From NCBI RefSeq assembly GCF_023380265.1, contig NZ_CP093366.1, positions 1,364,001 to 1,428,000 on the forward strand: a DNA stretch of 64,000 bases. Direction: 5' to 3'. Under the pieces are notes generated by a model. That model saw only the letters and a program-made list of their open reading frames with translations. It ran no database searches and was not told where the DNA came from. Each line of letters starts with the position of its first letter. The stretch's first letter is position 1. This stretch comes from Bombilactobacillus folatiphilus. Its GTDB lineage: Bacteria; Bacillota; Bacilli; Lactobacillales; Lactobacillaceae. The translations under genes and the position numbers were made by a program. Positions 1,799 to 61,017 of the stretch are shown here, piece after piece.

Positions 1799-2161
1799 TT
1801 ATTGGTCTTCAAGCATTGATTGGTATACCTCAATTTTAGCTTTAAGAAAACTTAAACTTTTTTGAGTGTGCTCCAATTCGATGAGCAATTCACCATATCT
1901 ATCTTGTAGTAGTGATAATCGGAGCGGTATCGTTTCGTCTCCTTGATATCTAAGGTTAGCATATTCTCGCATATCTGATATTTTCATACCTGTTTTTTTG
2001 AGGCGCTTGAGAAACTCAATCCAAACAATATCTTTATCGTCATAAACACGTCTGTTATTCGAATCCCGGGCGGGAATAATTAAACCTTCCTTTTCATAAA
2101 AACGTAAGGTGTCAATTGATAAATGTTCTTTTTGGGAGATTTCTCCAATTGTATAATTCAT
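1799..2161 (-). CDS. MerR-family transcriptional regulator
   Basis: A 120-residue regulator with the MerR winged helix at residues about 1-70 (IGEISQKEHLSIDTLRFYEK, then NNRRVYDDKDI) followed by a long dimerisation helix. There is no cysteine cluster or large effector domain, so it belongs to the small group often found beside oxidoreductases. It is divergent from the SDR gene at 2390, its likely target, across a 228-base spacer. A possible own promoter is TTACAA ... TACAAT near 2187-2214. The effector is unknown. Confidence 0.8.
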   Translation of the reverse strand: MNYTIGEISQKEHLSIDTLRFYEKEGLIIPARDSNNRRVYDDKDIVWIEFLKRLKKTGMKISDMREYANLRYQGDETIPLRLSLLQDRYGELLIELEHTQKSLSFLKAKIEVYQSMLEDQ

Positions 2162-2389
2162 TTTTATTCCTCGCTTCTATTTTTTATTGTACCAAAGCTC
2201 ATTTCATTGTAAGAGAAAAAGGAGGTGCTTGCCCCATTGTGTAGGACATTAGTTTCTTTTTGAAAGGAGGGGAAGATAATGAGACTGTTGCTTCACAAGT
2301 ACTAGTGGTTCCGTTACATGAGGACATCCCCTAGATGTTTCTGGACACAGACTGTTCTGCATTAATTAAATTATACGAGGAGAAATATA

Positions 2390-3169
2390 ATGAATAAATA
2401 TGTAATGATTACTGGCGCGAGTTCAGGTATCGGTTTAGCAACAGCTAAAAAAATGGTGTCCCGCGGGAAAAACTTGATTCTTGTAGCGAGGAGAAAAGAC
2501 AAATTATTAAATTTAAAAGATGAACTTAAAAGCAGTTATCCTGAAATTGATGCCGTAATAAAAACATTTGATTTAACAAAAACTGATGCAATAAACAGTT
2601 TTTGGGAAAGCTTATCAAATTATGATATCGAAACATTAATCAATAATGCAGGTATGGGAATGTATTCGCTTATAAAAGATCAAAATGATGAACGGACGCA
2701 ATCTCTATTAAAATTGGACGTTGAAGCTCTAGCGCTACTGACCACTTTATTCGTCAAGGACTATTGGAATGTTGAAGGAACTCAAGTTATCAACATCTCA
2801 TCGGCTGGTGGTTATGAAATTGTGCCAAACGCAATCACCTATTGCGCTAGTAAATTTTTTGTCAGTGCTTTTACAGAAGGTTTGGCGCTAGAATTGAAAG
2901 AAACTGGCGCCAAGATGCGTGCAAAGGTCCTAGCTCCTGCGGCCACGAAAACCGAATTTGGTAAAGTGGCAAATAATGTGGAAGACTATGATTATGATCA
3001 GGCTTTTCCACAATATCATACTGCCGAACAAGTTGCTTCATTTTTAATGGATTTGTACGATCATGATTCAATTCTAGGTTTTATCAATCGTGATAACTTT
3101 GAATTTGAAAAGAAGAATAATTATTTTGAAAATGCTTATGGTAAGGGAACTAATCAAACTTTAAAGTGA
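2390..3169 (+). CDS. SDR-family oxidoreductase (DltE/YdfG-like)
   Basis: A 259-residue short-chain dehydrogenase. Visible are the cofactor loop TGASSGIG near the N-terminus, the NNAG motif near residue 87, the catalytic serine region (NISSAGG) and YCASK for Tyr/Lys. The substrate cannot be told; relatives act on short 3-hydroxy acids or carbonyls. It starts at the ATG after GAGGAG. It is followed by a strong terminator and faces a divergent merR gene, a typical electrophile-responsive pair. The 2162-2389 spacer also holds a 14-base copy of a motif seen at the toxin-like locus near 51 kb. Confidence 0.8.
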   Translation: MNKYVMITGASSGIGLATAKKMVSRGKNLILVARRKDKLLNLKDELKSSYPEIDAVIKTFDLTKTDAINSFWESLSNYDIETLINNAGMGMYSLIKDQNDERTQSLLKLDVEALALLTTLFVKDYWNVEGTQVINISSAGGYEIVPNAITYCASKFFVSAFTEGLALELKETGAKMRAKVLAPAATKTEFGKVANNVEDYDYDQAFPQYHTAEQVASFLMDLYDHDSILGFINRDNFEFEKKNNYFENAYGKGTNQTLK

Positions 3170-3202
3170 CTTACTATTTCTTTATGTATCAAAATAGAAT
3201 TC

Positions 3203-3240
3203 AAAAATCCTGTCAATTAATCAATCGACAGGATTTTTTT
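3203..3240 (+). terminator. Terminator of the SDR gene
   Basis: AATCCTGTC / GACAGGATT stem with a 12-base loop followed by seven T residues. Confidence 0.85.
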
Positions 3241-3305
3241 GGTAGGGAACTATCTATACTGTTAACTGTTGCGTTATCAGTTCCCCGTTATATTTTATTA
3301 GCTCT

Positions 3306-4853
3306 TTATTCCCACTCAATGGTTGCGGGTGGCTTAGACGTAATATCATAGACAACGCGGTTCACGTGTGCCACTTCATTGGTAATGCGCGTGGAAATCT
3401 GCGCCAGCACATCCCATGGAATTTGCGCAAAATCCGCGGTCATGCCGTCAATAGAGGTGACTGCCCGAATTCCGACCGTATAATCATAAGTCCGACCGTC
3501 GCCCATAACGCCAACGCTACGCATCCCCGGCAAAACGGTAAAGTATTGCCAAATGGACTCGTCTAAGCCCGCTTTTTTAATTTCTTCCCGCAAAATATAA
3601 TCACTATCGCGCTCAATCTGCAACTTATCAGCGCTCACTTCACCTAACACCCGAATCCCTAAGCCGGGGCCTGGAAACGGCTGCCGCCAAACCAAATCGT
3701 GAGGCATCTCCATTTGTTCTCCCAGCTCACGAACTTCGTCTTTAAATAAAGTCCGCAACGGTTCGATCAAGGTAAAATGCATTTCTTCAGGTAATCCGCC
3801 CACATTATGATGTGATTTGATCGTTTGCGCGGTATTTGTCCCGCTTTCAATCACATCTGTGTATAAAGTTCCCTGCGCCAAAAAATCAATGCCATCTAAT
3901 TTTTGAGCTTCATCATTAAAAACTTCAATAAACTCGTTCCCAATAATTTTCCGCTTTTGCTCAGGGTCACTAACACCCTTTAACTTATCCAAAAAGCGTT
4001 GTTGAGCATCAACTTTGATGATATTCAAGCCAAATTTGCCTTCTAAACTAGCCATCACTTCATCAGCTTCGCCTTTGCGCAACAAACCATGATCCACGAA
4101 AATACTAGTTAATTGCGAACCGATCGCTTTATGCAATAACACGCCGGTCACTGAAGAATCCACACCGCCTGATAAACCTAATAACACTTGCCGGTCACCA
4201 ACTATCGCACGAATCTTTTGAATTTGCTCATCAATAAAATCTTTCATGCTCCAATTAGCCTGAGCTCCACAAATTTGAAAAGCAAAATTGTGCAACATTT
4301 CCAAACCATGATCGCTATTGCGAACTTCCGGATGAAATTGCACACCATACAGTTGCCGCTGTTCATCAGCCACCACCGCATATGGCGTATTATCGCTAAT
4401 TGCCACCGTTTCAAAACCATCTGGGATCGCTGTTACCCGATCACCGTGACTCATCCAAACAAATTGTCGAGCCGGTAAAGCTTGTAATAACGGATTTTGA
4501 GTTTTTTCAATCGTAATTTGCGCCCGACCATATTCCGGTGCACCGGCAGCTTGTACCTGTCCGCCCAAACTATGCATCATTAATTGCATACCGTAACAAA
4601 TACCCAAAATTGGAATGCCTAATTGCCAAATTTGCGGATCAATTGTTAACGCCTTATCATCGTAAACACTATTGGGACCACCAGACAAAATAATCCCCTT
4701 GGGTGCCCGTTCTTGAATCTCTTGAGCACTCATTGTATGTGGCAATAATTCTGAGTAAATGCCCATATCGCGAATGCGCCGCGTAATTAATTGATTATAT
4801 TGACTACCATAATCAAGCACGATAATGCTATCTGCTTGAACTTGTTCACCCAC
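3306..4853 (-). CDS. guaA: GMP synthase (glutamine-hydrolysing)
   Basis: Amidates XMP to GMP with ATP and glutamine in the last step of guanine nucleotide synthesis. The protein has 515 residues, normal for the family. The class I amidotransferase domain fills the first ~195 residues (nucleophile in ICYGMQ, Cys86; VQFHPE supplies His and Glu). The ATP-pyrophosphatase domain begins with the loop GLSGGVDSS, and the C-terminal dimerisation domain ends [11 protein letters not shown]. Translation appears to begin at a GTG ten bases after a GGAG site. The promoter should lie in the 80-base gap after the upstream terminator, and no purine riboswitch is visible there. Confidence 0.97.
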
Positions 4854-50780: not shown

Positions 50781-50940
50781 TAACTTCGCTAACCTCCTGT
50801 AAATAATATAATTTTATCTATTATACGCATTTTCGAATAAAAGTATAGGAGAAAGTTCGGAAATTGAACAATAATGTTTAATTTTTGAATAGATTTGTGG
50901 AAATAAAAAAGAAATTAACTCAAATAAATATTTGGATTTT

Positions 50941-50949
50941 TGCTATAAT
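50941..50949 (+). promoter_or_regulatory. Extended -10 promoter of the toxin-like locus
   Basis: TGCTATAAT, with TATAAT at 50944-50949, 43 bases before AAGGAGG. Confidence 0.5.
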
Positions 50950-51007
50950 TAATTTTGTAAGAAGTTTTATGGGCGGTAGCTGTTTGTTCTCAAGGAGGTG
51001 CTTGCGT

Positions 51008-51157
51008 ATGAGAATACGGAAGAAATCTGACGAAAGGCTCACAGCATTACTTGAATACTTATCAAGTATTGATGATTATGATTGCTTTTGGCACACTTGT
51101 TGCCACAATCATGAATCACAAGTAACAAAAAAGCCGTTCCATTCAACTTTAGGATAG
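51008..51157 (+). pseudogene. Degenerate holin-like (Hol-Tox) type I toxin locus
   Basis: The best ribosome site (AAGGAGG, 50992-50998) serves the ATG at 51008, opening a 49-residue frame with no hydrophobic stretch. The frame shifted by one base holds LMIMIAFGTLVATIMNHK (51069-51125), which matches the conserved core of holin-like toxin peptides (LMIAFGTLVV-type). It could be read only from a TTG (51051) or an ATG (51072) without a good ribosome site. So a shift between start and core seems to have broken the toxin. Confirming this needs a peptide-family search; the 50781-51321 gap holds no other gene. Confidence 0.55.
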
Positions 51158-56949: not shown

Positions 56950-58338
56950 TTATTCAAGATTTTGACCGGCGTGACGAATGCCGTACACCAGATAAATAAC
57001 CACCCCGATGGCAAACCAGATTAATGATGAAATCCATGTAATCATCTTCAAAGTTGTCATCAGATACAGACATAATAGCAACGAAATGATGGGTAAAATT
57101 GGATATAGCGGCACTTTGAAACCTTTATTTGGAATATCTTGGCGCTTACGCAAGGGAAGCACACCAATTGAAACAAACGCAAACGCAATTAACGTTCCAA
57201 TATTAACTAATTCAGCCAAATGATTTAAATCAACCAAACCGCCCATCACAGCAATAATAATTGTGATCACCAACAAACTATGGTTGGGCAAATGCTTGTC
57301 ATTCACACGACCTAAAAATTTGGGCAGCAAACCGTCACGACCGATCGCATATACCAATCGCGAACTACTATAAATCATTGTGACCATCATCGTGAACATG
57401 CCTGCCATGGCGCCAATGGAAATAATCCCGGCCACTCCGTTCAAATGGAAAAATTGCAGTGCGTACGATACGGGATCCGCCACATTTAATTTGGTATACG
57501 GCATCATGCCCGTCAAGACCGTGGACACTGCCATATACAAAATCGTGGCAACCACTAATGTGCCAATAATGCCGATCGGTAAGTTGCGCTGTGGATTTTT
57601 AACTTCAGGTGCTGACGACGAAACCGCATCAAAACCTAGATAAGCAAAGAATACCGTTGAAGCTCCGGCCTGAATTCCTTTCCAACCAAACGGCAAGAAT
57701 GGTGACCAATTTTTGGGCTTGACATAAAAGCAGCCAACCACCACAAACAACACAATAATAGCAATTTTAATGATTACCATCCAATCATTAATTTTCATTG
57801 ATGTACTCATGCCCCGCGACAACATCAAAGCAATCAACAGAACTACCACAATTGCAACCAAATTAACATACGTCCCGTGACTGGGATCATAAGCACCTGA
57901 GATCGCTTGCGGCAATTTGATGCCAAAGCCTCGCAAAAAAGAACTGAAGTATGCAGAAAAACCGACTGAAACGGTCGCCACCGCTAACATATATTCCAAA
58001 ATGAGCGCCCAACCGATCACCCAACCAATAAACTGACCAAAAATAATATTGCCATAAGAGTATGCACTACCCGCGACTGGCAACGACGAAGCAAATTCGG
58101 CATAACACATTGCCGCCGTCGCACAAACAATTGCTGCCAACAAAAAACTCAAGATGACTGCCGGACCACTCACCGTCGCCGCCACCGTTCCTGGCATAAT
58201 AAAAATTCCCGTGCCAATCACTGCACCAATGCCCAAAGCCATTAATTCTTTGGCCGACATGGTTTTTTGAAACTGTTGATCAGCTTGTAGGTATTGTTGA
58301 ATATCTGCTTTTTGGGTCATTTTTTTCCAAATTGACAT
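56950..58338 (-). CDS. APC-family amino acid permease (CAT-like)
   Basis: 462 residues with twelve helices of the cationic/branched amino acid (YfnA-like) group. The start is KELMALGIGAVIGTGIFIMPG (helix 1 unwound motif), with FFAYLGFDAVSSSAPEVKNPQRNLP in helix 6-7. It is divergent from the attenuator-controlled aminotransferase operon, and a TTGACA-17-TATTCT promoter drives it. Uptake of the amino acids used by that operon is a fair guess; specificity is not shown. Confidence 0.88.
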   Translation of the reverse strand: MSIWKKMTQKADIQQYLQADQQFQKTMSAKELMALGIGAVIGTGIFIMPGTVAATVSGPAVILSFLLAAIVCATAAMCYAEFASSLPVAGSAYSYGNIIFGQFIGWVIGWALILEYMLAVATVSVGFSAYFSSFLRGFGIKLPQAISGAYDPSHGTYVNLVAIVVVLLIALMLSRGMSTSMKINDWMVIIKIAIIVLFVVVGCFYVKPKNWSPFLPFGWKGIQAGASTVFFAYLGFDAVSSSAPEVKNPQRNLPIGIIGTLVVATILYMAVSTVLTGMMPYTKLNVADPVSYALQFFHLNGVAGIISIGAMAGMFTMMVTMIYSSSRLVYAIGRDGLLPKFLGRVNDKHLPNHSLLVITIIIAVMGGLVDLNHLAELVNIGTLIAFAFVSIGVLPLRKRQDIPNKGFKVPLYPILPIISLLLCLYLMTTLKMITWISSLIWFAIGVVIYLVYGIRHAGQNLE

Positions 58339-58506: not shown

Positions 58507-58535
58507 TTGACAGCAACGTCAAATTATACTAAATT
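58507..58535 (+). promoter_or_regulatory. Promoter of the attenuator-controlled aminotransferase operon
   Basis: TTGACA (58507-58512), 17-base spacer, TAAATT (58530-58535). Transcription would begin near 58542, leaving a leader of about 290 bases. Confidence 0.6.
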
Positions 58536-58564
58536 TAAATTATTCAAACTAGATAGGAGTTCTG

Positions 58565-58630
58565 ATGATGATGTCATTGACCTGTTCACAGTTGAATACT
58601 TGGTATTATAGCTTTTATTTCTTTAGGTAG
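58565..58630 (+). CDS. Leader peptide rich in aromatic residues
   Basis: A 21-codon frame from ATG (58565, with two more ATG codons after it) to TAG (58628-58630), preceded by AGGAG at 58555-58559 with five bases of spacing. Residues 13-20 are W-Y-Y-S-F-Y-F-F: seven aromatic residues in eight, including one Trp, three Tyr and three Phe. Its stop codon touches the 5' arm of the first leader hairpin. It looks like a sensor of charged aromatic tRNAs for the aminotransferase operon that follows. AT-rich, T-rich DNA can give Phe and Tyr codons by chance, so the Trp codon and the layout matter more. Confidence 0.6.
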   Translation: MMMSLTCSQLNTWYYSFYFFR

Positions 58631-58739
58631 TGTTTGCACCAACTTTAAGCGAGTGCAAACACGAAACTGTTTGTACCCGCAAGAAGTAAAGGTCTATTTA
58701 ATTGCCCTTACACCTTGCAGGAAAATCAAAACTGCAAGG
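58630..58739 (+). promoter_or_regulatory. Alternative hairpins of the aromatic leader
   Basis: Segments: 1 GTGTTTGCAC (58630-58639), 2 GTGCAAACAC (58653-58662), 3 TGTTTGTAC (58668-58676). 1 pairs perfectly with 2, and 2 pairs with 3 (one G-T), so the two hairpins exclude each other. Further on, GCAAG..GTAA.GG (58679-58692) can fold on CC.TTAC..CTTGC (58705-58718). That competes with CCTTGCAG (58713-58720) pairing perfectly with CTGCAAGG (58732-58739). Confidence 0.6.
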
Positions 58740-58765
58740 CTAACTTACCAAATCAAACCTTTGAG

Positions 58766-58798
58766 CCCAGCAGTGAAAATTTAACTGCTGGGTTTTTT
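58766..58798 (+). terminator. Attenuator-type terminator before the aminotransferase gene
   Basis: Perfect 9-bp stem CCCAGCAGT (58766-58774) / ACTGCTGGG (58784-58792), then six T residues; 33 bases before the gene start. Confidence 0.9.
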
Positions 58799-58831
58799 AT
58801 TTGATTTTAAAGTCAGAAAGGAAGTTTTATT

Positions 58832-60016
58832 ATGACAGATATGACGCAATATTTAAACAAAAGGCTGGCGAAAGTGAAGACTTCACCAATTTTAACCTTT
58901 TCTACTTTTGCCAAAACAATTCCCCACATTGTTAATTTCACCGTGGGCGAACCGGATTTCAATACGCCCGAACATATCAAGCAAGCTGCCACGACAAGTA
59001 TCGAGCATAATCGTTCCCATTACGCTCCTTCCAACGGGACGCCAGCTTTGAAGCAAGCCACGTGTCAGTTTTTGGCTAATAAATATCAGCAGCACTTTAA
59101 TCCTAACGAAATTATTATTACTGAAGGCGCTTCTGAGGGGATTTATACTGCAATCTTATCCGTGCTCAACCCCGGTGACAAAGCAATTATTCCCACACCA
59201 ACCTTCCCCCTGTATATCGACGATGTTAACTTGGCTGGTGGCCAACCAATTTTAGTGGATACCTCAAAAACAGGTTTTAAATTAACACCGCAATTATTGC
59301 AGACAGCTTTAGAACAAGCAGGATCGGATGTACGCTTATTAATTTTGAACTATCCGTCTAATCCAACCGGTGTCACTTACTCACAAGCTGAATTACACGC
59401 ATTAGCCAGAGTAATCAAAGATCAACCAATTTTTGTATTATGCGACGAAATTTATAGTGAATTAAATTATGATCAACCACATGCTTCCTTGGTTAATGAA
59501 TTGCCCGATCAAACTATTTTGATTACTGGGCTCTCCAAATCACATGCAATGACCGGCTGGCGAATTGGCATCATGGCTGCTCCCAAAGCTATTACCGACG
59601 AACTCAGTAAGATTCATCAATTTACTATCACAAGCACCCCAACCATGATCCAAGATGCTGCCCAAGAAGCTTTAGCTAATGGTCCTGACGATGCCTTACC
59701 GATGAAACAAGAATATCAACGCCGGCGTGATTATATCGTAGAACATTTAAATGATTTAGGTTTTAGTTGCGCCAGTCCTAAAGGAGCTTTTTACGTTTTT
59801 GCCAAAATTGCGCCAGATCTTCAACAAGATGATGTTGAATTTGCTTATGACTTAGCTAAAAACGGCTTAGTTGCTGCTGTTCCCGGATCTTATTTTGGTC
59901 CCGGTGGTCAGCACCACTTACGTTTTAGTTACGCCACAAGTTTTGACAATATTCAACAAGGTATGTCTAATCTCACAAAATATGTTGCACAACAACGTGC
60001 AAAAAAGGAGCAATAA
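58832..60016 (+). CDS. araT: Class I aminotransferase, probably aromatic (AraT-like)
   Basis: 394 residues of fold-type I. It shows NFTVGEPDFNTPEH, NYPSNPTGVTY, LCDEIYSEL and the PLP lysine in LSKSHAMTGWRIG. It is the paralogue of the enzyme at 14996. AAAGGAAG precedes the ATG. Phe, Tyr or Trp to the keto acid is proposed because of the aromatic leader peptide and the following 2-hydroxyacid dehydrogenase, which can use phenylpyruvate; homology alone does not settle specificity and PatA-like roles remain possible. Confidence 0.8.
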   Translation: MTDMTQYLNKRLAKVKTSPILTFSTFAKTIPHIVNFTVGEPDFNTPEHIKQAATTSIEHNRSHYAPSNGTPALKQATCQFLANKYQQHFNPNEIIITEGASEGIYTAILSVLNPGDKAIIPTPTFPLYIDDVNLAGGQPILVDTSKTGFKLTPQLLQTALEQAGSDVRLLILNYPSNPTGVTYSQAELHALARVIKDQPIFVLCDEIYSELNYDQPHASLVNELPDQTILITGLSKSHAMTGWRIGIMAAPKAITDELSKIHQFTITSTPTMIQDAAQEALANGPDDALPMKQEYQRRRDYIVEHLNDLGFSCASPKGAFYVFAKIAPDLQQDDVEFAYDLAKNGLVAAVPGSYFGPGGQHHLRFSYATSFDNIQQGMSNLTKYVAQQRAKKEQ

Positions 60017-60018
60017 CA

Positions 60019-61017
60019 ATGAAAATTTTAGCTTTAAGCGTGCGCGATGACGAACAGGCAGCTTTCACCGAATGGAAACAAGCGCACCCAGAAATACAAG
60101 TCGACACAACAGAAATCGAATTAACCATACAAACCGTTGATCAATTGCAAGGATATGACGGCATTGTTATCCAACAACGGCGGCAAATTGAGCCCGAAGT
60201 TTATCCCATTTTGGAACAAATGGGTATCAAACAAATTACGACTCGCACAGCTGGTTACGATGTGATTGATTTGAAATTAGCTGCCCAGCATCACTTACAA
60301 ATTAGCAATGTTCCCGCATATTCACCTCGCTCGGTGGCTGAATTAACTTTGACCCATACTATGCGGTTAATTCGCAAACAAGAATTATTCGATCAACGTG
60401 TCCGTCAACAAGATTATCGTTGGGCTGGTTTACAAGGATTAGAAGTTCATACCTTGACGATTGGGATCATTGGTGCAGGACGGATTGGTGGCACCACGGC
60501 ACAACTATTCCACGCATTGGGTGCTAAAGTGATCGCTTATGACACCAAACCTAATTCCCAATTGAATGATATTTTGACTTTCATGTCCAAACAAGAAGTT
60601 TTGCAACAAGCTGATGTCATCTGCTTGCATGTGGATTTGAATCCTACATCCGAAAATTTGATCGACGAACAAGCGTTAGACTTGATGAAACCAACTGCCT
60701 ATTTAATCAATGAATGTCGCGGACCCGTTGTCGATACTGCCGCTTTAATTGCTGCCCTTCAACAACAAAAACTGGCGGGGGCAGCTTTGGATACTTTAAC
60801 CGGTGAAGAAAATTTCTTCAATTTTGATTTGCGTAATAAAGAACTTCCTAGTGATCAACTAAAAATTTTACAGGCGATGGACAATGTGATTATTACGCCA
60901 CATATCGGCTTTTACACCAATATGGCTGTAAAAAATATGGTTGATATCAGTTTAGATGATGTTGTGGACTTGTTAACTCATCATTCTTGCGAACATCTGG
61001 TCACAATTCCAGAATAA
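60019..61017 (+). CDS. D-2-hydroxyacid dehydrogenase
   Basis: 332 residues of the D-LDH/D-hydroxyisocaproate group. The nucleotide site is GIIGAGRIGG, with an Asp after it (IAYDTK) for NAD. Catalytic Arg is in INECRGPVVD, Glu in TGEEN and His in ITPHIGFYT. It starts three bases after the aminotransferase stop behind AAGGAG, a tight two-gene operon: amino acid to 2-keto acid to D-2-hydroxy acid. With aromatic substrates the product would be phenyllactate or hydroxyphenyllactate. Regenerates NAD+. Confidence 0.88.
   Translation: MKILALSVRDDEQAAFTEWKQAHPEIQVDTTEIELTIQTVDQLQGYDGIVIQQRRQIEPEVYPILEQMGIKQITTRTAGYDVIDLKLAAQHHLQISNVPAYSPRSVAELTLTHTMRLIRKQELFDQRVRQQDYRWAGLQGLEVHTLTIGIIGAGRIGGTTAQLFHALGAKVIAYDTKPNSQLNDILTFMSKQEVLQQADVICLHVDLNPTSENLIDEQALDLMKPTAYLINECRGPVVDTAALIAALQQQKLAGAALDTLTGEENFFNFDLRNKELPSDQLKILQAMDNVIITPHIGFYTNMAVKNMVDISLDDVVDLLTHHSCEHLVTIPE

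Follow-up and report, generated by a model that had tools for sequence, protein, structure and literature searches.

A probable leader-peptide attenuator with seven pairing segments upstream of an aminotransferase operon in Bombilactobacillus folatiphilus, and its relatives in Lactobacillales

We analysed a stretch of 64,000 nucleotides of Bombilactobacillus folatiphilus (NCBI RefSeq assembly GCF_023380265.1, contig NZ_CP093366.1, positions 1,364,001 to 1,428,000 of the forward strand), hereafter called the window, in which a leader region precedes two genes on the same strand (Table 1). The best PDB match of the first gene is 4my5, a putative amino acid aminotransferase, and that of the second is 4xkj, a D-lactate dehydrogenase. 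Acting in sequence, a transaminase and a hydroxyacid dehydrogenase yield phenyllactate and acids like it, products of practical interest, and the D-hydroxyacid dehydrogenase is usually regarded as a catabolic enzyme. Divergent from the leader lies a gene for a BcaP-like branched-chain amino acid permease (56950-58338, minus strand; match below cutoff). At the Rfam gathering score the window contained no Trp_leader, Phe_leader or T-box match, and a T-box reading of the leader was rejected on the last of these; elsewhere in the window, the Listeria sRNA families rli38 and rli28 gave gathering-level matches at 3200-3320 (minus strand) and 50934-51121 (plus strand), respectively.

Table 1. Features of the leader region and of the operon behind it (positions within the window).
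Feature	Position	Strand	Basis
Sigma-70-type promoter TTGACA-17-TAAATT	58507-58535	+	Sequence; TTGACA 58507-58512, TAAATT 58530-58535
Shine-Dalgarno sequence AGGAG of the leader ORF	58555-58559	+	Sequence
Leader peptide ORF, 21 codons, MMMSLTCSQLNTWYYSFYFFR, stop TAG	58565-58630	+	Sequence and aromatic ORFs in relatives
Segment A: FYFF codons, 12 bp with A'	58612-58624	+	Duplex -10.2 kcal/mol; covariation, 89 leaders
Segment 1, from the last base of the stop codon	58630-58639	+	Same offset in 33/40 leaders; 1:2 covariation
Segment 2, partner of 1 or 3	58653-58662	+	Covariation, duplex energies
Segment 3, partner of 2 or 4	58668-58683	+	Covariation, partner-swap test, overlap count
Segment A', partner of A	58681-58693	+	Covariation, duplex energy
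Segment 4, partner of 3 or 5	58713-58721	+	Partner-swap test
Segment 5, partner of 4, or of 6 as putative antiterminator	58732-58741	+	5:6 partner-swap, 64/66 leaders
Segment 6, 5' arm of the terminator	58763-58774	+	Hairpin search, partner-swap test
Segment 7 (58784-58793) and T6 run: 3' part of the intrinsic terminator	58784-58798	+	Sequence
Gene 1: class I PLP aminotransferase (AraT-like)	58832-60016	+	NF005588 482 bits, below cutoff 576
Gene 2: D-2-hydroxyacid (D-lactate family) dehydrogenase	60019-61017	+	Best NCBIfam model below cutoff

Transcription of the leader would be expected to start near position 58541, and promoter-like sequences similar to that of the window were also seen by eye in its relatives. 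The leader ORF begins with three consecutive ATGs, of which the second is better spaced from the AGGAG, so that its start is ambiguous; its residues W-Y-Y-S-F-Y-F-F occupy codons 13-20 (aromatic at 13-15 and 17-20), and the peptide ends in TWYYSFYFFR. Three hairpin arms, GTGTTTGCAC (58630-58639), GTGCAAACAC (58653-58662) and TGTTTGTAC (58668-58676), are arranged such that GTGCAAACAC can pair with either of its neighbours. The terminator is a perfect 9-bp hairpin (58766-58774/58784-58792) followed by T6 at 58793-58798, 33 bases before the ATG of the aminotransferase gene. The promoter, the AGGAG, the ORF, the arms, the terminator and the 33-base gap thus all lie where the first-pass annotation, which was made from the sequence alone, had placed them. 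Folding of positions 58626-58800 gave a z of -6.8 against dinucleotide shuffles, with none of 200 shuffles as good.

The same annotation had described mutually exclusive hairpins starting at the stop codon. These are present, but they involve more than one pair: the layout is a chain of seven segments, the first of which overlaps the stop codon by one base, together with a helix A:A' that uses the aromatic codons of the ORF itself. In the window, the duplex energies are -10.2 kcal/mol for A:A', -14.0 for 1:2, -10.6 for 2:3, -8.0 for 3:4, -13.6 for 4:5, -11.7 for 5:6 and -18.3 for 6:7, whereas four unexpected segment pairs gave -4.0 to -5.6 kcal/mol. Comparison of the leaders of related genomes lends support to helices A:A', 1:2, 2:3 and 3:4 and to the putative antiterminator 5:6; the remaining two helices, 4:5 and 6:7 (the terminator), fold as stable hairpins.

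Compensatory changes, proposed by the first-pass annotation as a check on the stems, were found in an alignment of 89 leaders (85 distinct). For A:A' with 2:3, 91.1% of cells were paired, double changes occurred at 20 of 21 pairs (shuffles 11.9; slid controls at most 9) and the covariation score was 0.454 versus 0.219, the alignment having been fitted to this very structure, which favours that count. For helix 1:2, which is absent from the model, 93.3% of cells were paired and both sides had changed in 8 of 11 pairs (shuffles 4.6). The later segments were examined with an alignment-free partner-swap test on 66 leaders, in which arms were exchanged between genus labels, a design that removes shared ancestry only in part. 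Where the arms had been chosen independently of the helix, own pairs were better than swapped ones, with -12.5 against -9.9 for 3:4 (51/66, t = -5.7) and -14.2 against -8.0 for 5:6 (64/66, t = -13.7). The 4:5 and 6:7 helices reached 66/66 each, with t of -21.2 and -29.0, scores that arise partly by construction because these arms were picked as hairpins. The unexpected pairs 3:5, 4:6, 5:7, 3:6 and 3:7 gave no signal in the 66 leaders (|t| at most 1.3); 4:7 gave t = -6.7, which we read as a by-product of the resemblance of segment 4 to segment 6. These counts include some loci of one genus that carried different labels (g37/g37b, and probably L032 with g18 and L033 with g22), and they retain the few leaders in which the automatic 4:5 hairpin choice is visibly wrong (L203, L211 and L040). 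We dropped a further candidate helix, in which TATTCAA at the start of the transcript would pair with the LN codons: on inspection it seemed convincing within the genus of the window, but the swap test gave it no support (own pairs better in 41/64, t = -1.8).

The competition between neighbouring helices recurs among the relatives. Helices 3:4 and 2:3 have at least three paired bases in common in 36 of 39 leaders, and when 2:3 and A' are considered together this holds for 39 of 39, with a mean of 10.5 of 12.3 bases; the window stands at the low end, since of the seven pairs of its 3:4 helix three bases are common to 2:3 and one to A'. A terminator-like hairpin with a T run was present in all 66 leaders, including those of the RF02863 loci discussed below, a count that stands without a control rate.

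To follow the element across genomes, we used a covariance model (R1) built from ten leaders with the structure A:A' and 2:3. Of 397 Lactobacillaceae genomes, 144 gave a match at E≤0.01, and these belong to 22 of 40 genera. From these we fetched 60 stretches with 61 R1 matches, picked to span genera, and named the gene clusters behind the leaders from one representative each (NCBIfam, Pfam). The first gene was a TrpX-type ABC transporter in 30 cases (one with a permease ORF only), the representative scoring 338.5 bits against a TrpX cutoff of 390. An aminotransferase came first in 10, shikimate dehydrogenase in 7 and a hydroxyacid dehydrogenase in 2; an MFS protein followed by chorismate synthase accounted for 6, and a transketolase followed by shikimate dehydrogenase for 3. 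Chorismate synthase, an APC permease and a gene without assignment contributed one case each. The sole MFS-gene representative tested, at L161, carries a chorismate mutase domain. The leader had been regarded as a device of araT and as rare in Firmicutes; neither idea held, since the element also stands before transporter and shikimate-pathway genes and, together with a sister class described below, is common in Lactobacillales. At locus L157, an ORF first guessed from its sequence to be pheA found no match in NCBIfam or Pfam at the thresholds used, and at L144 a leader of this long, seven-segment class precedes a BcaP-like permease 60% identical to that of the window.

At the aminotransferase loci we read 19 upstream regions (L007 and L008 on the other strand). 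The leader is present at 11 of them (L001, L007-L011, L032-L035 and L040), among which are Weissella paramesenteroides (L032), Ligilactobacillus salitolerans (L033), Liquorilactobacillus (L034 and L035) and, with a divergent leader, a Lactobacillus MAG (L040), and it is absent from the other 8 (L012, L036, L037, L041, L042, L052, L055 and L072). Two relatives within the genus (G001 and G004) that have no chorismate synthase match retain the leader. Five short variants (L108, L122, L134, L163 and L164) lack segments 1 and 2 and have segment 3 near the stop codon; their 3:4 helix has an energy of -12.5 to -15.2 kcal/mol, only 0.6 to 3.4 standard deviations better than shuffles.

We propose that the window leader is a ribosome-mediated transcription attenuator that is induced by starvation, a reading to which we assign a probability of roughly 0.87. 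It combines an SD-preceded ORF, an enrichment of aromatic codons, the mutually exclusive helices 5:6 and 6:7, and cognate biosynthesis or transport genes downstream. In this scheme, RNA polymerase would make the leader RNA while a ribosome translates the 21-codon peptide. When charged Trp-, Tyr- or Phe-tRNA is scarce, the ribosome would stall on codons 13-20 and block A:A', leaving segment 1 free to form 1:2, after which 3:4 and then 5:6 could form; 5:6 would take segment 6 away from the terminator, and the aminotransferase operon would be transcribed. When charged tRNAs are plentiful, the ribosome would reach the stop codon and cover segment 1, so that 2:3, 4:5 and 6:7 would follow in turn and transcription would end; with no ribosome, A:A' and 2:3 would lead to termination as well. 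The ORF, the aromatic codons, the competing helices, the terminator and the gene associations come from sequence comparison, whereas ribosome stalling, the kinetic order of pairing and the sign of the response are inferred. The core of the earlier proposal, a ribosome-mediated attenuator with a Trp/Tyr/Phe leader, is supported by the aromatic codons, the covariation and the partner-swap results, its stalling step being conjectural.

The sign is suggested by the position of segment 1: among 40 Lactobacillaceae leaders in which this segment and the stop codon could both be placed, its first base is the third base of that codon in 33. Because segment 1 abuts the stop codon, a ribosome finishing the leader would sit on it and leave 2:3, 4:5 and 6:7. 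Most of the relatives examined control biosynthesis or uptake genes, which fits induction by starvation. Since the short variants, and the trpB-motif class described below, differ from the long class by two segments, the same sign is predicted for them; the short variants should represent natural five-segment versions that keep it.

Folding with both pairings, another check proposed in the first-pass annotation, bears this out for the first step of the switch and not, at equilibrium, for the whole of the relay. In constrained folds to position 58730, stalls at W13, Y15 and F17 gave 1:2 with 3:4, a ribosome at the stop codon gave 2:3, and the fold without a ribosome gave A:A' with mostly 2:3, although in the stop state 3:4 was partly formed as well (expected pairs 5.6, versus 6.8-7.0 for the stalls from W13 to F17). 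Up to 58745, 4:5 won in every ribosome state; up to 58776, 5:6 prevailed solely for the F17 stall, with about 3 pairs for W13, 0.8 for Y15 and at most 0.4 for F19, F20 and the stop; up to 58792, the terminator had formed in every state. Equilibrium folding therefore backs the relay only in part, and the switch must rely on kinetics.

The rival that survives best, and which we nevertheless consider unlikely, is the excess-induced sign suggested by the first-pass annotation, in which, as in tnaC, a free aromatic amino acid would act via the nascent peptide to arrest the ribosome as it completes the leader, turning a catabolic operon on. The established role of transaminase and hydroxyacid dehydrogenase in phenyllactate formation is in its favour, and so are the QLN codons before the aromatic run, which are often conserved without explanation. 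However, an arrest at the stop codon would cover segment 1 and so favour 2:3, 4:5 and the terminator, and shikimate genes and transporters stand behind most of the relatives examined; the placement of segment 1 in 33/40 leaders and these biosynthesis and uptake genes contradict the excess-induced sign. Leaders of the tnaC type have a fixed arrest motif with a Pro before the stop, whereas the aromatic codons of the present family vary in order and number, no C-terminal Pro is fixed, and the window peptide contains no Pro and ends in FYFFR. For the starvation-induced attenuator that we prefer, the D-hydroxyacid dehydrogenase is an odd partner; our guess would be a salvage role for 2-hydroxy acids.

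The aromatic codons were evaluated with an ORF rule that requires an SD-like sequence upstream and ignores amino-acid content. This content-blind rule found an SD-preceded ORF in 64 of the 66 leaders and in 60 of the 61 fetched R1 matches, and an ORF in 153 of 157 leaders of all kinds, with none for L138, L234, L237 and L246. At L234 (698-1558) and L237, from Bacilli that are not Lactobacillales, an RF02863-like leader precedes a gene for prephenate dehydratase (for L234, NF008865 207 bits, cutoff 219), and the leader ORF missed by the rule reads NTFFFSDFR by eye. Over the last 12 codons of 64 leaders, the mean number of F, W and Y was 5.41 in the reading frame; the two alternative frames gave 1.00 and 1.25, and base-shuffled sequences 2.30, so the conservation of aromatic codons anticipated by the first-pass annotation was indeed found. 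An origin of the window leader by chance was rejected on the folding z against shuffles, the matches in 144/397 genomes and this in-frame excess.

The identity of the aromatic residues differs between targets, and the leader codons follow the target gene. Counting Trp over the 12 codons before the stop, we found it in 9 of 10 fetched aminotransferase leaders, 4 of 4 transketolase leaders, 5 of 21 before shikimate dehydrogenase and 2 of 6 before the MFS gene, and in none of 4 before DAHP synthase, 2 before the hydroxyacid dehydrogenase or 71 long-class leaders before the ABC transporter; one Trp-containing leader, at L233, precedes a gene without assignment. Among the 19 upstream regions, 8 of the 11 aminotransferase leaders contain Trp, as do 3 of 6 in the genus of the window, the window included. 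These patterns make it very improbable that the aromatic run is a mere by-product of helix segment A with no sensing role. Such an origin is suggested by the U-rich character of segment A and by the base-pairing constraint on it, yet it would account neither for the excess in the reading frame nor for a Trp content that depends on the target, from 0/71 long-class transporter leaders to 30/30 leaders of the trpB-motif class.

That class corresponds to the trpB motif (RF04312, SRC-39-1), with more than 900 examples, which was published as a strong riboswitch candidate on the basis of strong covariation and a mostly 5'-UTR placement; its authors leave a classic attenuator possible, and the accessible part of their account makes no mention of a leader ORF (PMC11109978). 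The window leader scores 28.5 bits with this family, below its cutoff of 59, and L235 scores 47.4 bits. Among 295 genomes of Lactobacillales, RF04312 gave a match at E≤1e-4 in 133, of which 52 exceeded the cutoff. In a phylum-wide sample, 1 of 299 genomes exceeded the cutoff, and since that genome lies within Lactobacillales we make no claim for the motif outside the order. We examined 30 loci from the best-scoring genomes, several of them near-identical, so that they do not amount to 30 independent cases. An ORF such as ...SWQNWRR ends directly before the motif, with at least one Trp in 30/30 and at least two in 27/30, whereas of 907 ORFs taken by the same rule at random places 27% have a Trp and 6.4% at least two. 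The segment after the stop codon, which lies upstream of the first position of the Rfam model, forms a helix with segment 2 that is better than its shuffled versions in 26/30, and segment 3 does so with the arm of the terminator in 30/30.

The trpB motif resembles the window element in its 2:3 hairpin, in a segment 3 with pairing capacity for the terminator arm, in its terminator and in the Trp leader ORF upstream, and shares with the long class a downstream gene that is mostly of the same ABC-transporter family; it differs in having five segments rather than seven, in its Trp leader and in its publication as a riboswitch candidate. It looks, from these comparisons, like part of the same system, a short Trp-only sister of the long Phe/Tyr/Trp class. 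A metabolite riboswitch or a protein-binding RNA, as put forward for the motif (PMC11109978), would explain the covariation and the placement reported there, but not the Trp ORF that ends just upstream at all 30 loci examined or the pairing of a segment outside the Rfam model, and we regard it as highly unlikely.

Some observations by eye concern this short class. In the genome of the window, a leader ORF ending in SWQSQHS, with a trpB-like hairpin and a terminator, precedes a TrpX-like transporter (L239:1530-1586); it is absent from the Rfam matches at E≤0.05. L238 and L239, both from that genome, were intended as negative controls of the R1 search, and R1 matched neither, although L239 is not a clean control because of this leader. 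Three equal RF04312 matches of 32.3 bits in the same genome (G000:C1:806721-806832, G000:C1:815853-815964 and G000:C2:9526-9637) are probably a repeated element. At L272, the first ORF behind a trpB-motif leader (2047-3105) encodes a group II intron maturase, which may have inserted between the leader and the gene that it controls.

When 20 R1-type loci were compared with Rfam, a single match reached the gathering level, to RF02863 (Enterococcus sRNA 2410) in L119. The window scores 24.5 bits against this family, below the cutoff of 61, and is thus no formal member; other loci reach 177.3 bits. At E≤0.01, RF02863 gave a match in 162 of 295 genomes of Lactobacillales (in 71 above the cutoff) and in none of 14 control genomes; in a class-wide sample, 26 of 299 genomes matched at E≤0.001, 5 of them outside the order. 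R1 re-found 30 of 31 RF02863 loci at E≤1 and 26 at E≤0.01 (31 searched of 66, none of which was used in R1). In the 31 loci read, the upstream ORF mostly ends in YFSYFR, and the region covered by the family starts where the leader ORF ends and reaches approximately to the long-class terminator; it differs from the window element in being catalogued as an sRNA and in leaders that mostly carry F and Y only. Behind 49 RF02863 loci we found a transporter in 35 (one with a permease ORF only), shikimate dehydrogenase in 12, DAHP synthase in 1 and an unassigned gene in 1. To judge from these comparisons, RF02863 looks like part of the attenuator system of the window.

The E. faecium RNA of this name, 195 bases long, was detected by RNA-seq, gave two transcripts on Northern blots and was called an sRNA (PMC5593968); its length is as expected of a terminated leader. 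Its reported increase with daptomycin (2.3-fold by RNA-seq, 4.1-fold by qPCR; PMC5593968) falls outside what the attenuator model explains. A stand-alone small RNA whose upstream placement is incidental, as the Rfam label implies and the discrete E. faecium transcripts might suggest (PMC5593968), is the least probable reading of all, given a same-strand aromatic-pathway or TrpX-type transporter gene behind 48/49 RF02863 loci and a terminator-like hairpin in 66/66 leaders of both kinds.

Taken jointly, these results make it likely, at a lower level of confidence than the attenuator itself, that one ancestral Lactobacillales leader-peptide attenuator for aromatic supply gave rise to two classes, a short one for Trp and a long one for Phe/Tyr(/Trp) with two more segments and the same sign. 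On that joint reading, sRNA_2410 and the trpB motif would both be this device, neither a free sRNA nor a ligand-binding riboswitch, the long-class transporters whose annotation is close to TrpX would have Phe/Tyr as substrates, and the window operon would be starvation-induced, perhaps rebuilding Phe, Tyr and Trp from 2-oxo or 2-hydroxy acids.

Leader-peptide attenuation is a known kind of control. The trp and phe attenuators of Proteobacteria have four segments, leader codons for the regulated amino acid and a competing antiterminator and terminator; the window element shares the cognate-codon leader and the competition, and differs in its seven segments and in the absence of a Trp_leader or Phe_leader match. 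TRAP-regulated leaders carry repeated (G/U)AG triplets, and in lactic acid bacteria amino-acid attenuation is usually discussed in terms of T-boxes. Panina et al. 2003 (FEMS), on aromatic regulation in low-GC Gram-positives, reportedly proposed that DAHP synthase genes of streptococci and lactococci carry a DNA signal, and a Listeria study of branched-chain amino acids is said to concern an ilv leader attenuator. That study (PMC5864092) and the his leader-peptide attenuators described in some Firmicutes (PMC9413887) resemble the window element, as far as their descriptions allow, in placing leader-peptide attenuation outside Proteobacteria, and concern other amino acids and lineages. The uORFC-13-1 motif, with 24 examples upstream of aroF in Acholeplasma and environmental sequences, is described as having a uORF, a U run coding for Phe, a shikimate gene and a terminator, features that are like those of the window element (PMC8632094). 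In Streptococcus suis, trpXYZ is reported to be under T-box control (PMC9382623), which is transcription attenuation of the same kind of transporter operon; unlike the window element, which has no T-box match, a T-box reads the tRNA directly. A paper on regulons of lactic acid bacteria (PMC3616900) makes no mention of attenuation, leader peptide, aromatic, tryptophan or T-box, and the literature matches listed, from a search whose scope left out most subscription papers, contain no description of the family as an attenuator. What appears to be new is the reading of this family, widespread in Lactobacillales, as an attenuator.

Such an attenuator family would account for a large part of how the order regulates the shikimate pathway, the aromatic aminotransferase and the aromatic transporters, and it could explain both an orphan riboswitch candidate (the trpB motif) and an sRNA family (RF02863). 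The leader codons give predictions of transporter specificity, Trp versus Phe/Tyr, and the seven-segment chain, with natural five-segment versions of which the same sign is expected, provides a test bed for the lengthening of attenuators.
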